This document shows positions 49,858-58,328 of a stretch of 64,000 nucleotides of DNA, one piece after another (position 1 is the stretch's first letter; each line of letters begins with the position of its first letter). A program made the position numbers and the translations under genes. The stretch comes from Roseobacter sp. SK209-2-6 (GTDB lineage: Bacteria > Pseudomonadota > Alphaproteobacteria > Rhodobacterales > Rhodobacteraceae), in NCBI RefSeq assembly GCF_000169455.1, contig NZ_AAYC01000004.1, positions 62,001 through 126,000 on the forward strand. The letters run 5' to 3'. The notes under the pieces are model-generated. The model was not told the DNA's origin, searched no databases, and saw only the letters and a list, made by a program, of their open reading frames with translations.

Positions 49858-50754
49858 CTATTTGCTAAGAATATTACAAAGCTCATCGAGTTGATCCAGA
49901 GAATCATAGTTGATTGTGATGGATCCCTTTTCGCCGCCAGCGACGTGATCAATGGAGACTTTCATTCGCAGGATCGCGGACAAATCCCCTTCTAGGGCGC
50001 GTGTATCTGCATCCTTCTCCACTGGTTTGCGCGCACTTCGCGGCTTGGACGGAGTACTATCCCCCGCCGCATCCTTTTTCACCAGTGCTTCGGTTGCGCG
50101 AACAGATAGGCCCCCTTTTACGATCTTCTTTGCCAACTCAGAGGCATTGTCGGAGGTAATCAATGCTCGCGCATGACCTGCCGACAACTTCCTATCGTGA
50201 ACCAGATTCCGAACGTCTTCAGGCAGGTGCAAGAGGCGTACAAGATTGGCAATATGGCTCCGGCTTTTGCCCAATGCTTCAGCCATCTTTTCCTGCGTAT
50301 GGCCAAAGCGCTCCATCAACTGCTTATAGCTCTGTGCTTCCTCCATTGCATTGAGGTCAGAGCGCTGAATGTTCTCAATGATCGCAACTTCCAGCATCTC
50401 CAGATCGGAATAGTCGCGAATAAGAACAGGAACTTCATGCAGCTGCGCAGCCTGGGCTGCACGCCAACGCCGCTCGCCTGCGACAATCTCATAAATTCCC
50501 GTAGGACGTGGGCGCACGATCAGGGGTTGAAGGACACCCTTCTCTTTGATTGATGCGGTTAGATCGTCCAGGTCTTCTTGTAGAAATTGCCTACGAGGTT
50601 GATCTGGGTTGGCTTGAACTTTTTCAATCGGCACCAGAACCTCAGAGTTTCTTGGTGACTGGTTTTCGGTGCTTACCGGATCAGGATTTACATCTGCCAT
50701 CAAAGCAGAAAGACCACGACCCAAACCACGCGGTTTCGTTTTTTTCTCTGACAT
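49858..50754 (-). CDS. parB: Chromosome partitioning protein ParB
   Basis: 298 residues. Near the N-terminus is the ParA-interacting segment KKTKPRGLGRGLSALMAD. The CTPase/ParB domain has VPIEKVQANPDQPRRQF and IVAGERRWRAAQ; the HTH is KMAEALGKSRSHIANLVRLL with SAGHARALI. The C-terminal dimer domain is present. It binds parS and spreads as a CTP-dependent clamp. Two perfect parS sites lie 1.4 and 3.3 kb upstream. Confidence 0.97.
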   Translation of the reverse strand: MSEKKTKPRGLGRGLSALMADVNPDPVSTENQSPRNSEVLVPIEKVQANPDQPRRQFLQEDLDDLTASIKEKGVLQPLIVRPRPTGIYEIVAGERRWRAAQAAQLHEVPVLIRDYSDLEMLEVAIIENIQRSDLNAMEEAQSYKQLMERFGHTQEKMAEALGKSRSHIANLVRLLHLPEDVRNLVHDRKLSAGHARALITSDNASELAKKIVKGGLSVRATEALVKKDAAGDSTPSKPRSARKPVEKDADTRALEGDLSAILRMKVSIDHVAGGEKGSITINYDSLDQLDELCNILSK

Positions 50755-50769
50755 TCTATCCTCCGCTTT

Positions 50770-51579
50770 CTAGGCCGCTACATTCTGGTGAACTGAAATC
50801 AATTCTTCCGCCAAGGCACGATAGGCCTGTGCCCCGAGTGAGTTACTGTCATAGTTCAAGACGGGAAGAGCAAAGGATGGAGCTTCGCTAACTCTGACAT
50901 TCCGGGGAATTTTTGTTTTAAAAACAAGCTCTCCCAGATTTTCTCGTGCATCCTGCTCCACCTGTTGGGACAGATTGTTTCGACGGTCAAACATTGTCAA
51001 AACAACGCCCTCGATACGAAGATTTGGATTCGCGGCTTGGCGAACTTCCCGAATTGTCAGCATCAACTGCGAAACCCCTTCAAGTGCAAAAAACTCGCTT
51101 TGCAAAGGGATCAGTACCGAATGTGCCGCGACCATTGCATTCACAGTCAACAGGTTAAGAGAGGGTGGACAATCGATTAGGACATAGTCCCAATCATACT
51201 CATCCATCGCTGTCTGGCGAAGCGCATCATGCAAGAGGAAACTGCGTTTCTCATTTGCAAACAATTCAATGTCAGCTGAACTCAGATCTACTGTTGCTGG
51301 AATAATGCAAAGATCTTCAATCTCTGTTGCATAAATCACCTCTTCTAGCGGAGTATCATCCACTAGAAGATCGTATGTTGTGAGGCCACGGTCTCCGGCT
51401 TCAATCCCCAGACCTGTTGAAGCGTTTCCCTGAGGGTCGAGATCAACGACGAGAACCCTCAGTCCAGTCTCAACCAAAGCAGCTGCCAAGTTTATGGCCG
51501 TAGTCGTCTTTCCTACGCCACCCTTTTGATTAGCTACCGCGATAATTCGTGGACCCTCAGGGCGGGAGAAATCAGACAC
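50770..51579 (-). CDS. parA: Chromosome partitioning ATPase ParA
   Basis: 269 residues from a GTG at 51579 with AAGGAG seven bases upstream. The deviant Walker A ANQKGGVGKTTTAINLAAAL, switch VVDLDPQGNAST and VLIDCPPSLNLLTVNAMVAA are intact. It forms gradients on the nucleoid and moves ParB-parS complexes. It overlaps the rsmG end by eight bases and precedes parB by 15. Confidence 0.97.
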   Translation of the reverse strand: MSDFSRPEGPRIIAVANQKGGVGKTTTAINLAAALVETGLRVLVVDLDPQGNASTGLGIEAGDRGLTTYDLLVDDTPLEEVIYATEIEDLCIIPATVDLSSADIELFANEKRSFLLHDALRQTAMDEYDWDYVLIDCPPSLNLLTVNAMVAAHSVLIPLQSEFFALEGVSQLMLTIREVRQAANPNLRIEGVVLTMFDRRNNLSQQVEQDARENLGELVFKTKIPRNVRVSEAPSFALPVLNYDSNSLGAQAYRALAEELISVHQNVAA

Positions 51580-52207
51580 GAGACACTCCTTTGATTTTCA
51601 AAACAACGGCTTCTTCTTCAGTTAAACTTGTAATCTCTTCCTGATCAAAGCGCCATCGTCTTGCAGCGTTATCCACTTCTTTTTTCCAAGTAGCGCCCTT
51701 TGGAAAGAAAGAAATGCCTCGCGGATGCAGATGTCTCTCAGAAAACTCAAAAAGAAGGTCCAAATCAGCAAGGGCACGCGCTGACAAAAAGTTTGCGTTT
51801 TGGGGATCAACCTTCTCAATTCTATCGGAAATAACTTTCACCCGAACATCGCATTCACGCGCAGCTGTTCTCAGGAAGGCCGCCTTCCTCTTATCACTTT
51901 CAATGAGTGTAACCGAGAGCCGCGCGGCACGCTCTGCAGCCAATATCGCAATGACCAAACCGGGAAAACCGCCACCACTGCCAATATCCAGCCAGTTGGT
52001 ATCTTCCTCTTTGGAGATATAGTCCTCCGCCAGTAGAAAGACCTGCGCTGAATCGACGATATGGCGTGTCCAAAAATCCTGAAGGCTACTTTTCGATACA
52101 AGATTGATCTTCGGGTTCCACTTGAAAAGCGTTTGCTCAAAATGAGACAATCTGTCGATTGTTTCACGTGAAACATCCAAGCTTCCACAGATCAGATCAC
52201 GAGTCAT
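51572..52207 (-). CDS. rsmG: 16S rRNA (guanine-N7) methyltransferase RsmG (GidB)
   Basis: 211 residues. The SAM motif [18 protein letters not shown] and [11 protein letters not shown] are diagnostic. It methylates G527 of 16S rRNA in the family. A perfect parS site lies in its 5' coding region, where it encodes DVSRET. The ATG overlaps the mnmG stop (ATGA). Confidence 0.95.
52160..52175. promoter_or_regulatory. parS site (in rsmG)
   Basis: TGTTTCACGTGAAACA, an exact match to the consensus ParB-binding palindrome. It is inside rsmG, 1.4 kb from the parB start and about 5.2 kb from the putative origin. Confidence 0.95.
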
Positions 52208-54087
52208 CCTTGTGCCCTCTGACCACCTTGATTTCGTCTCAGCCGAGCAAGAACAAGTGCAAGACCAGCCGGAGTCATTCCATTTATGCGACTCGCTTTT
52301 GCCAATGTCTCTGGCCTTGCAGCGGTGAGCTTTTGGATCAACTCAGCAGAAAGCCCTTCTATCAGGGAATAGTCGAAATCTCGAGGAATTTTATGTCCTT
52401 CATCTTTCTTCATTGCAGCGATCTCTCGCTCCTGGCGCACAATGTAATTCGAATAAAGAGCATCACGTTCCAGCTGCTTTTGGATCTCTGGTTCTGTGGA
52501 CAGGACCTCCGGAACCAAGTTCGCCACATCATTGAAGCTTACATTTGGAAAGCCCAGGACTTCGAATCCTGTTCGCTTTTTGCCATCCTGATTGACATGA
52601 ATTCCCGCACTGGATACCTGTTTAGGAGTAAATCTGTTCCCTTCCAGATGACGCCTAGCTGTATCCAGTTTTTCGGACTTTGCGCTAAAGGCTTTCCAGC
52701 GCTCTTCGCTGATACATCCAATTGAGTGACCTTCGGGAGTAAGTCGTTGGTCCGCATTATCAGCCCGAAGCGACAATCGGAACTCAGCACGCGAGGTAAA
52801 CATGCGATAAGGTTCCGTAACCCCATTCGTAGTTAGATCGTCGATCATTACCCCGATGTAGCTATTTGCGCGACTGAAGATGATGGGATCCTTCTCGAGG
52901 ACTTTTCTAGCAGCGTTGACACCAGCAACTAACCCTTGCGCAGCAGCTTCTTCATAGCCCGTAGTTCCATTGATCTGACCGGCAAGATATAGACCAGGCA
53001 CATCCTTTAACTCTAGTTCCAGCGTAAGAGCTCTTGGATCAACATAGTCATATTCTATCGCATAACCTGATTGCAGAATTTTGGCTGCCTCCAAGCCAAT
53101 AATAGAACGAACATAGTCCTCCTGCACATCAACAGGCAAACTAGTCGATATTCCATTCGGGTAAACGGTAGAATCTCTAACCCCCTCGGGCTCCAAGAAG
53201 ATTTGGTGGGAGTTCTTCTCAGCAAATCGGACGATCTTATCTTCAATTGAGGGACAGTACCTGGGCCCTATACCATCAATATGACCACCATACATTGCTG
53301 AGCGACTGAGGTTCTCACGAATGATCTCATGAGTCTTTTCATTGGTATGTGTTATTCCACAATCGACTTGAGGAATATTCAACTTCTGCGTCTGAAAAGA
53401 GAAGAAGACTGGATCTTCGTCACCTGGCTGTTTTTCCAGAATGTCCCAATTGATCGTCCGGCCATCCAAGCGAGGTGGTGTACCAGTTTTCAATCGTCCT
53501 AACGGAAGTTCGAAGCTCTGAAGCTTTTCAGCGAGTTTTATGGACGGGCGATCCCCCATCCTCCCACCTGAATGCGAGGAATCACCGATATGGATAACCC
53601 CTCGTAGAAAGGTTCCCGATGTCAATATGACAGCGCCTGCTGAAATCTCCGAATTGTCTGCCAAGACCACCCCGGACACGGTCGTTCCTTTCATCACAAA
53701 ATCAGTGGCTTCACCCTCGATGATAGTCAAATTCTTTTGCGCCTTGGTTTCTCGGAGCATTTCAGATCGGTAGACCGAACGATCAGACTGCGCCCTAGGT
53801 CCCTGAACAGCAGGCCCTTTTCTGCGGTTTAGCAACCTGAATTGAATGCCGGCCAGGTCAGCGACGCGCCCCATAACCCCATCCATGGCGTCAATCTCTC
53901 GAACCAAGTGTCCCTTACCTAGACCACCTATAGCTGGATTGCATGACATTACCCCGATACCATCTTGGGAAAGAGTGACCAAAGCAGTCCGGACTCCCAG
54001 GCGTGCAGAAGCATGAGCTGCTTCCGTACCCGCATGTCCACCACCAACAACGATTACATCAAAGTTTGAATGTTTCACGTGAAACAC
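52204..54087 (-). CDS. mnmG: tRNA uridine 5-carboxymethylaminomethyl modification enzyme MnmG (GidA)
   Basis: 627 residues. The FAD-binding [57 protein letters not shown] and [15 protein letters not shown] are family hallmarks, and the C-terminal helical part is complete. With MnmE it modifies wobble uridine 34. The start is GTG at 54087, whose first codons (MFHVKH) are encoded by a parS site. It begins three bases after the mnmE stop. Confidence 0.97.
54071..54086. promoter_or_regulatory. parS site (at the mnmG start)
   Basis: TGTTTCACGTGAAACA, a second exact parS, covering codons 1-6 of mnmG and read in a different frame from the site in rsmG. It is about 3.2 kb from the putative origin. 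Confidence 0.95.
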
Positions 54088-56861: not shown

Positions 56862-57317
56862 TCAGAACTTAAATATCACCGAGACAACGATGACTACCAT
56901 CAAAATGGTTGGGACCTCATTCATCAGGCGATACTGTCGTCCTGTGAGCGTGTTCTTCTCTGCTTCAAAATCCCGGTACCGACGCAAGAGCCAGATGTGA
57001 AACCATGTCATGGCAATAACGGAGGCACCTTTGGTCCAGGGCCAGATATAGCTCCAGTCGACAATACCAGGCGTCGCTACGATCAGCAGTCCTGCACCCC
57101 AGCTTACCATCATTGCCGGACGCATGATGAAACGCAGCAGTTTGTACTCCATGGTTAAGAAAATCTGAGTACTTCCTGGCACATTCTCAGCTTGTTCCAC
57201 GTGGTAAACAAAAAGCCGAGGAAGATAGAAGAGACCAGCCATCCAGCTAAGCACCGCCATAATGTGCAGAGACTTGGCATAGGGGTAGACTGTGAACAGG
57301 AAATCACTCAGGTCCAT
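56862..57317 (-). CDS. hemJ: Protoporphyrinogen IX oxidase HemJ
   Basis: 151 residues and about four membrane helices. The family motifs SLHIMAVLSWMAGLFYLPRL (with the conserved His) and YKLLRFIMRPAMMVSWGAGL are intact, and the C-terminal RLMNEVPTILMVVIV is typical. It oxidises protoporphyrinogen in the inner membrane and feeds hemH. It directly borders the putative origin, where Caulobacter has hemE. A gap of 181 bases separates it from rho. Confidence 0.92.
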   Translation of the reverse strand: MDLSDFLFTVYPYAKSLHIMAVLSWMAGLFYLPRLFVYHVEQAENVPGSTQIFLTMEYKLLRFIMRPAMMVSWGAGLLIVATPGIVDWSYIWPWTKGASVIAMTWFHIWLLRRYRDFEAEKNTLTGRQYRLMNEVPTILMVVIVVSVIFKF

Positions 57318-57429
57318 GGTTCTTGCGCTCCGGTTCGCTTGCTCACCCTAATAAATAAAAGAAAGATTTAAAGGATGATGTTTTTGTAGGCCCTAGGGAT
57401 TTCAGTGGATTACTGAGTCCTTCCTTGGC

Positions 57430-57438
57430 TTATCCCCA
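57430..57438 (+). promoter_or_regulatory. DnaA-box-like 9-mer
   Basis: TTATCCCCA, one base from TTATCCACA. It lies in the loop of an inverted repeat, CCTTGG (57423-57428) with CCAAGG (57436-57441). Confidence 0.6.
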
Positions 57439-57512
57439 AGGGGCATAACTTACCAGTCCGTGGTCTGCCACATTGGTGACATTTTTCTTAACGGCCTTAG
57501 AAATATGGGAAA

Positions 57513-57527
57513 TTAACACTCTGTTAA
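57513..57527. promoter_or_regulatory. CtrA full binding site
   Basis: TTAACACTCTGTTAA, an exact TTAA-N7-TTAA match to the CtrA consensus. It lies inside the putative origin between two DnaA-box-like 9-mers. Confidence 0.65.
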
Positions 57528-57539
57528 TGAAGGTTACTC

Positions 57540-57548
57540 TGGGGATAA
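57540..57548 (-). promoter_or_regulatory. DnaA-box-like 9-mer
   Basis: TTATCCCCA on the minus strand, the same 9-mer as at 57430 in inverted orientation, 12 bases from the CtrA site. Confidence 0.6.
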
Positions 57549-57593
57549 ACCATGGAGGAATCGAGGAAGATCAGGATATCCCGCATTTGGAAG

Positions 57594-57602
57594 TTATCCC
57601 TT
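57594..57602 (+). promoter_or_regulatory. Weak DnaA-box-like 9-mer
   Basis: TTATCCCTT, sharing the first six bases with the DnaA box consensus; the weakest of the four. Confidence 0.4.
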
Positions 57603-57720
57603 TCCCCGGAGGAGGAATCAGCCGGCGAAAACTTGAGATAGGGGAGCAAGCACGGGACTTGCTAAATCGGATAGATTTCATACAAACCCTCCCAACTTGC
57701 TCTGCTGTTTTTCCTAGGGG

Positions 57721-57729
57721 TTTTCCACA
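57721..57729 (+). promoter_or_regulatory. DnaA box at the maf start
   Basis: TTTTCCACA, a full match to the consensus TTWTNCACA, ending on the A of the maf ATG. Confidence 0.6.
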
Positions 57730-58328
57730 TGGCTACCCACATCGTGCTGGCGTCAGGATCAGAAATTCGTGCCCAGCTTCTGCGCCAGGCTGGGCTGACC
57801 TTTGACATTCAGACCGCACGCCTGGATGAGGACGCGATAAAACAGGCCCTTTTGGCAGAGGAGGCGACGCCCCGCGACATTGCTGATGCATTGGCGGAAG
57901 CCAAAGCAAGAAAGGTTAGCGGCAGATCTCCCGATAAGATGGTATTGGGCTGCGACCAAGTGCTGGATTTCCAGGGCAAGCTTCTTTCAAAACCAAAATC
58001 TCCTGAAAATGCGCTTTCTCAGCTCAGAGAGATGCGCGGACAGCGACATATGCTTTTGTCAGCTGCCGTACTGTATAAAGCAGGGGAGCCGGTCTGGCGG
58101 CATGTTGGTCAGGTTCGCATGCGTATGCATGAATGTTCCGACGCTTTTCTGGAAGGCTATGTCGAACGGAACTGGGATAGTATTCGTCATTCCGTTGGGG
58201 CTTATAAGCTGGAAGAAGAGGGAGTTCGACTTTTCTCCAGCATCGAGGGTAGTTACTTTAATGTGTTAGGACTACCTCTAATTGAACTGCTCAACTATCT
58301 GAGACTGCAGGGAGTCATTGATCAATGA
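57729..58328 (+). CDS. maf: Maf-like nucleoside triphosphate pyrophosphatase
   Basis: 199 residues. The N-terminal IVLASGSEIRAQLLRQAGL and the MVLGCDQVLDFQGKLLSKPK motif with the catalytic aspartate mark the Maf family, though the N-terminus here has IRAQ in place of the usual RR. It hydrolyses non-canonical nucleotides. It starts at the right edge of the putative origin and its stop overlaps aroE. Confidence 0.92.
   Translation: MATHIVLASGSEIRAQLLRQAGLTFDIQTARLDEDAIKQALLAEEATPRDIADALAEAKARKVSGRSPDKMVLGCDQVLDFQGKLLSKPKSPENALSQLREMRGQRHMLLSAAVLYKAGEPVWRHVGQVRMRMHECSDAFLEGYVERNWDSIRHSVGAYKLEEEGVRLFSSIEGSYFNVLGLPLIELLNYLRLQGVIDQ

Follow-up and report, generated by a model that had tools for sequence, protein, structure and literature searches.

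Replication origins of Rhodobacteraceae chromosomes have been described with Ori-Finder, which is reported to have pinpointed oriC by GC skew and parAB in 101 strains, with eight strains in which it could not be pinpointed (PMC6699656). At the origin of Caulobacter, the IHF site is printed as TAACGCTCTGTT in the description consulted here and overlaps a CtrA site (PMC4285127). For the opening of the origin, the closest described system is the BUS of Bacillus subtilis, which comprises DnaA-boxes #6/#7 and the DnaA-trios (PMC8287927, PMC10721633). In the BUS model DnaA captures the middle adenine of each trio, with Asn187 of the B. subtilis protein hydrogen-bonded to this adenine and Arg202 and Glu228 binding the guanine, and in B. 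subtilis the substitution of thymine for the middle adenine is reported to have slowed strand separation and lowered initiation (PMC10721633). The same account notes that conservation of the trio-reading residues is not universal and extends only to their general properties. The published search for trios calls for three or more NAN triplets no farther than 16 bp from a DnaA box; no trios are reported in 15% of genomes, and trios without a middle adenine are suspected (PMC8287927).

Here we describe a window, the stretch of 64,000 nucleotides that was analysed, in which a first-pass annotation had proposed a putative replication origin between hemJ and maf. Because the 101 Rhodobacteraceae origins had already been placed by skew and parAB (PMC6699656), the location of this origin is of a known kind, as existing predictors would give. 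The value of the finding lies in the unwinding element, and not in the place of the origin. Most genomes of the family keep a guanine phase next to their DnaA boxes with a middle thymine in most triplets, and their DnaA is without the adenine-reading residue. The Rhodobacteraceae track thus provides a concrete, testable case of the suspected trios without a middle adenine. We found no description of this track, of the tyrosine replacement in DnaA, or of the CtrA/IHF site discussed below for Rhodobacteraceae in the open-access literature, and the BUS or DoriC tables may list them earlier.

The hemJ–maf gap as chromosomal origin

The gap is a non-coding region of 411 bp (57318..57728) between two divergent genes, hemJ on the minus strand (56862..57317) and maf on the plus strand (57729..58328). 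The hemJ product matches Pfam UPF0093 with an E-value of 1.8e-55 and has HemJ TIGR00701 as its best NCBIfam match, at 122 bits and under the 138-bit cut-off, and the maf product matches TIGR00172 above cut-off as well as Pfam Maf. Gene calls and identities agree with the first-pass annotation, as do the profile matches for the right-hand gene order maf-aroE-coaE-dnaQ-secB, with secB on the minus strand; we take this to be the order to the right of the Caulobacter origin as well. The annotation had also remarked on hemJ in place of hemE on the left. hemJ is present there, and it is the usual neighbor in the Rhodobacteraceae genomes examined rather than a peculiarity of this one. In the window's genome hemE lies on a different contig (C17), and COG1806 (PF03618) was not found by a search that does find the Caulobacter copy. 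The dnaA gene is on the same contig as the gap, 117 kb away. The genus of the window is probably Pseudophaeobacter, because two genomes of this genus, G010 and G001, share their gap sequences exactly with Pseudophaeobacter flagellatus and P. leonis.

A search for maf contributed regions from 100 genomes: 141 of 150 genomes matched, 30 of these already had loci, and regions were taken for 100 of the other 111. Two of the 11 matched genomes without a region taken had loci otherwise, and weaker second maf matches were ignored. From 191 candidate loci, the exclusion of 11 without maf and 36 without detectable hemJ led to 145 gaps including that of the window, 127 of them distinct after removal of identical ones (median 402 bp), and the 123 with a length of 330–450 bp were aligned. 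DNA similarity to the gap itself was the route by which 20 of the 123 rows were found. In 27 further loci, from 26 genomes, rho abuts the gap and leaves no room for hemJ.

GC skew had been named as a check on the proposed origin, and the cumulative skew of the 64-kb window has its minimum at 57200, only 118 bp left of the gap and not elsewhere, in keeping with the origin reading. On the 321,686-bp contig that contains the window, sampled in 10-kb bins with four stretches left unread, all 12 bins to the left (including the origin's own bin) have negative skew and 14 of the 16 to the right have positive skew, the two non-positive bins having values of -0.016 and -0.001. The assembly is a draft of 29 contigs, and chromosome-length skew was taken from a relative of the same genus (G003). 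Of 20 samples of 20 kb along its contig of 4,121,483 bp, the two at 0 and 0.2 Mb have positive skew, all 10 between 0.4 and 2.2 Mb have negative skew, and all 8 between 2.4 and 3.8 Mb have positive skew; the sign changes only twice, at 2.22–2.40 Mb and 0.22–0.40 Mb. The hemJ gene of this relative is at 2.286 Mb, inside the first of these intervals, and therefore the other switch is about half a contig away, as expected of a terminus. The skew minimum is found at the gap and the maximum about half a chromosome off, the whole-chromosome part of this statement coming from the 20 samples of the same-genus relative. In six named relatives, comprising two Pseudophaeobacter, one Tritonibacter, two Leisingera, and one Yoonia, the skew minimum of a 16-kb locus falls at most 110 bp from the homologous gap.

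Genome-wide there are two perfect parS sites, TGTTTCACGTGAAACA at 52160..52175 and at 54071..54086, both within 5.2 kb of the gap and ending 5.1 and 3.2 kb from it. The sole further match within two mismatches has two mismatches. Both perfect sites coincide with the first codons of genes, rsmG and mnmG, where parS is read near the N-terminus of the protein as FHVKQ or FHVKH. The parA gene (50770..51579, minus strand), which encodes a ParA-type ATPase that scores under the equivalog cut-off, adjoins parB (49858..50754, minus strand), which matches TIGR00180 above cut-off. A distance of 3–6 kb had been given for parAB and the two parS sites together; it is accurate for parS and too short for parAB, with the start of parA 5.7 kb and the end of parB 7.5 kb from the gap.

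All four of the DnaA-box-like 9-mers listed in the first-pass annotation are present in the gap. TTATCCCCA occurs twice in opposite orientation, at 57430..57438 (plus strand) and 57540..57548 (minus strand), TAATCCACT is at 57404..57412 (minus strand), and TTTTCCACA is at 57721..57729 (plus strand), where it shares one base with the maf start codon. This last box had been called full-consensus and is in fact one mismatch from the consensus TTATCCACA. Three 9-mers within one mismatch of TTATCCACA fall in the 411-bp gap, where the density over the whole window (11 in 64 kb) predicts 0.07. By this count the boxes are clustered beyond chance. The narrower form TTATCCMCA gives a less marked signal, occurring twice in the window, both times in the gap, a count of at least two being reached by 7 of 100 shuffles. 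The cluster is conserved: the 123 aligned gaps have eleven DnaA-box positions, each within two mismatches of consensus in 26–90 rows compared with 0.6–1.2 by shuffles, and a mean of 3.04 boxes within one mismatch per gap compared with 0.08 after shuffling.

The window keeps four of the eleven positions well. These are found within two mismatches in 90 rows (57404; 1.2 expected), 89 rows (57430; 0.8 expected), 80 rows (57540; 0.6 expected), and 84 rows (57721; 0.6 expected) of the 123. The other seven have 3–6 mismatches in the window. On the minus strand, 57394..57402 (AAATCCCTA, 4 mismatches; 41 rows, 1.0 expected) and 57608..57616 (4 mismatches; 31 rows, 1.1 expected) are degenerate. On the plus strand, 57418..57426 is lost (6 mismatches; 26 rows, 1.1 expected), 57594..57602 is weak (TTATCCCTT, 3 mismatches; 36 rows, 0.7 expected), and the three at 57576..57584 (52 rows, 0.9 expected), 57600..57608 (34 rows, 0.9 expected), and 57709..57717 (48 rows, 0.6 expected) are degenerate with 4 mismatches each. 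Because the right-most box, 57721..57729, overlaps the start of maf and is kept in 84 of 123 rows, DnaA bound to it could regulate maf as well.

AT-rich segments had also been noted, and the gap is indeed AT-rich for the window, with 45.7% GC. By nearest-neighbor energy it includes the least stable of all 40-mers in the window (57349..57388), an A-rich tract that continues into the triplet track described below and that the family alignment also shows as A-rich. Another 40-mer, starting at 57496, ranks fourth in instability among the non-overlapping ones. The segment 57349..57388, AT-rich, easily melted, and beside the boxes, is likely the DNA unwinding element of the origin. The three reported GANTC sites are present, compared with 0.73 expected from 114 in 64 kb. 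However, we dropped them as origin evidence because their number ranges from 0 to 9 among relatives. From the skew, the conserved boxes, and the proximity of parS, which bear out the first-pass proposal, the gap at 57318..57728 is almost certainly oriC, the bidirectional origin of the main chromosome.

A putative combined CtrA/IHF site

The sequence TTAACACTCTGTTAA at 57513..57527 is the only strict TTAA-N7-TTAA in the 64-kb window and forms a putative combined site for CtrA and IHF. In the 12 rows from the genus, 8 of 8 half-site columns are invariant, compared with 1 of 7 columns in the spacer and 27 of 59 in the surrounding sequence. An IHF core lies on the minus strand inside the TTAA-N7-TTAA in 10 of these 12 rows, including the window, and the remaining two keep the TTAA halves without the core. 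A plus-strand IHF core is at the aligned place in none of the 12, TTAA-N7-TTAA being there instead. In the 106 rows left when the genus and five near rows are set aside, the plus-strand core, CARNNNNTTR (57506–57515), is at the aligned place in 52 and missing from 54, with 1.1 expected from local shuffles, and the full WATCARNNNNTTR is there in 18, with 0.1 expected. The strict TTAA-N7-TTAA is at the aligned place in none of the 111 rows outside the genus and TTAA-N7-TTWA in 6 of them, including Tritonibacter and Leisingera. On these counts the CtrA site was rejected as a family-wide trait, and the TTAA-N7-TTAA looks like a clade-specific gain that resembles Caulobacter rather than a shared inheritance.

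The genome encodes a CtrA-like protein that is 78% identical to the query, well clear of the second-best match at 36%, and the chance that CtrA controls this origin falls only a little short of even. Its absence as a regulator deserves comparable weight: with a probability also slightly below one half, TTAACACTCTGTTAA serves IHF alone or is AT-rich by chance, and in this group the origin is never bound by CtrA. A ctrA deletion strain of D. shibae is reported to be viable (PMC4046655), at least one TTAA-N7-TTAA turns up in 15 of 100 shuffles of the window, and the lack of the strict site outside the genus points the same way. Against this reading, an IHF core does not need an outer TTAA on both sides, the half-sites are invariant around a variable spacer, and two genus rows keep the halves without the core. 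Furthermore, loss of phosphorelay genes in D. shibae is reported to give fewer cells with larger chromosome numbers (PMC4046655). If the Dinoroseobacter origin has a comparable site, the combined CtrA/IHF site could provide a direct mechanism by which the CtrA phosphorelay there influences chromosome number as reported.

A guanine-phased triplet track beside the reverse DnaA boxes

Columns 57371–57390, which separate the A-rich tract from the reverse boxes, form one of the best conserved runs in the 123 gaps. The window reads AGG ATG ATG TTT TTG TAG here (57372..57389, plus strand), in a triplet register set by the box-proximal TAG. From triplet 1 to triplet 6, the third base is G in 106/122, 111/122, 122/122, 46/121, 112/123, and 106/122 rows. 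A third-position G is present in four or more of the six triplets in 120 of the 123 gaps, and in either other phase no gap shows this. Across 57366–57389, C fills 16 of 2924 cells of the aligned gaps. The middle base in the family is mostly T in triplets 2–5, a mixture of G and A in the outermost triplet, and A in the box-proximal one; in the window, triplets 2–5 have T, not A, in the middle.

Selection of 20 rows by their similarity to the gap favors conservation, and therefore a recount omitted these and the 12 genus rows. The guanine phase is found in 88 of the 91 rows that are left, which have a median pairwise identity of 0.42 over the gap (1500 sampled pairs). Because the aligner lines up Gs, pairs of Gs were also counted within single rows, in the 30 bases to the left of 57392. 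Distances of 3, 6, and 9 give 440, 341, and 321 pairs, compared with 308.5, 272.8, and 235.0 in shuffled rows, and the other six of the nine distances tested fall under the shuffles. A more demanding count, likewise independent of the alignment, asks for 75% or more of all Gs of a 30-base stretch in one phase, and only 13 of 123 rows show this, compared with 0.7 after shuffling.

A DnaA box with at most two mismatches on the unwinding side, as in the BUS, is present in the window (57404–57412, 2 mismatches) and in 116 of the 123 rows. By the published rule, NAN trios at the unwinding-side boxes are not enriched, with 34 of 123 rows compared with 41.0 expected, and the window itself has a NAN run of only one triplet at these boxes and of two at any box. 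Runs with other centers at the unwinding-side boxes are found in 88 (NTN; 25.9 expected), 71 (NGN; 30.0 expected), and 2 (NCN; 9.2 expected) of the 123 rows. These counts show that the repeat within 16 bp of the unwinding-side boxes is not A-centered. Since NGN is enriched as well, the excess of NTN alone does not fix the register. Application of the NAN rule to any box on either strand was uninformative, with 95 of 123 rows for A compared with 106 for T, 98 for G, and 76 for C.

The extended track motif, allowing two mismatches, occurs once in the window's genome. In the family the track is kept with a motif score of at least 12 in 15 of the 27 loci without hemJ (14 of 26 genomes, two of the loci, L127 and L171, being from one genome), compared with 3 of 540 shuffles. 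The track is therefore hardly a hemJ promoter, a reading that we disfavor since the track persists where there is no room for the gene. In those 27 loci hemJ is missing from the origin flank and maf is retained. Scores under 12, with no recognizable track, are found in 21 of the 127 gaps (for example L167, L169, L183, L256, and L273), and one of 20 unrelated 20-kb samples scores 14.5. A class-wide search of 240 genomes returned 61 matches, spread over 54 of the genomes. The family accounts for two of these matches (the window and G237) and for one of the 41 matches to the reversed motif. Outside the family, the 59 matches in 237 genomes are not far above the 40 of the reversed control, which was counted by eye, and they give no clear sign of the exact motif as a trait beyond the family.

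The window's DnaA was aligned to 8btg_A in a numbering consistent with the structural account (PMC10721633). At the positions of B. subtilis Asn187, Arg202, and Glu228 it has Tyr239, Lys254, and Glu280. A sample of 119 genomes yielded 117 with a DnaA match, of which 89 were examined besides the window's own. In these alphaproteobacterial proteins the Asn187 position is Tyr in 80 and Phe in 5, the Arg202 position is Lys in 88, and the Glu228 position is Glu in all 89. Across the class sample, then, the residue that reads adenine differs from that of B. subtilis, whereas those that read guanine are the same or conservative substitutes, in parallel with the retained guanine phase of the track.

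Taken together, we consider it probable, with real room for doubt, that the origin opens through the triplet track at 57372–57389. A broader proposal is tentative, and on present evidence unlikely to hold in full: Rhodobacteraceae, and perhaps Alphaproteobacteria, might use a different single-strand code, in which a G-phased, T-centered trio (3'-GTW-5' after a box-proximal 3'-GAT-5') goes with an aromatic DnaA residue in place of Asn187, the origin and the initiator having changed together, and in which the window's genus would have independently gained a Caulobacter-like CtrA/IHF switch. The aromatic change was seen class-wide, and the track was aligned in Rhodobacteraceae only.

The main competing explanation for the track, which has a substantial though lesser chance of being correct, is that 57372–57389 serves as an unwinding sequence by being AT-rich, or is where a different conserved protein binds, with guanine phasing that has no trio function. 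The failure of A-centered runs to be enriched, when T- and G-centered runs both are, is consistent with this explanation, for it reveals a repeat and leaves the register unchosen. Alternative registers would read GAT GAT one base further on, more than 16 bp from the box at 57404, or would run along the complementary strand, with A as the middle base. The aligned rows share descent and their Gs are lined up by the aligner itself, and no motif score of 12 is reached in the 21 gaps mentioned above or in 12 of the 27 loci without hemJ. However, the track is placed as a DnaA-trio is expected to be, adjoining reverse DnaA boxes on the unwinding side. Its phase survives the removal of the genus and similarity-chosen rows, and the within-row excess of G pairs is confined to multiples of three among the nine distances. 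Outside the family, the motif does not greatly exceed its reversed control. That the gap is only the divergent promoter region of hemJ and maf, with DnaA, CtrA, and IHF as transcription regulators and the origin elsewhere nearby, is very improbable: the two genes do diverge, DnaA and CtrA are described as transcription regulators (PMC4468827, PMC2877005), and a skew minimum resolves an origin to about a kilobase and not to a base, but the minimum is at or beside the gap in the window and all six named relatives, boxes and track hold fixed places across the 123 aligned gaps, and the track persists at loci where rho abuts.

Proposed working of the origin and comparison with described systems

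From these elements we infer a sequence of binding events, their order, a bend, and control by CtrA. DnaA would bind the box clusters at 57404–57438, 57540–57548, and 57721–57729, and probably the weaker boxes at 57576–57616. A bend at 57513–57527, probably made by IHF, could draw the box clusters together. A DnaA filament might then extend from the reverse boxes at 57394–57412, triplet by triplet, into the adjacent strand at 57372–57389, opening the A-rich stretch at 57349–57372 and allowing the helicase to be loaded. In this genus, phosphorylated CtrA could sit on 57513–57527 and oppose IHF, as in the Caulobacter origin. ParB at the two parS sites would then segregate the copies.

The origin resembles the Rhodobacteraceae origins described with Ori-Finder in being near the GC-disparity minimum and a local GC minimum, with parAB nearby (PMC6699656). 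In contrast to the present description, no box map, triplet track, or IHF or CtrA site and no mention of hemE was found in the Ori-Finder account (PMC6699656).

Like Cori of Caulobacter crescentus, the origin combines an AT-rich region with DnaA boxes, and its TTAA-N7-TTAA overlaps a putative IHF site, as in Cori. The window's TAACACTCTGTT differs by one base from the Cori site TAACGCTCTGTT as printed (PMC4285127). However, the flanking genes here are hemJ and maf, whereas those reported for Caulobacter are hemE and COG1806 (PMC1914354), and the window has one strict CtrA site where five are reported for Caulobacter (PMC4468827). The boxes also differ, being of the TTATCCMCA type here and G-boxes, TGATCCACA, in Caulobacter.

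The hemJ–maf gap has a box pair, a short spacer, and a triplet repeat mostly with guanine, in the order in which the BUS is described (PMC8287927, PMC10721633). An AT-rich stretch comes next in the gap, as it does in B. subtilis. Unlike the BUS, triplets 2–5 have T in place of the middle A, and the DnaA has Tyr at the position of Asn187 and Lys at that of Arg202, with Glu228 kept.
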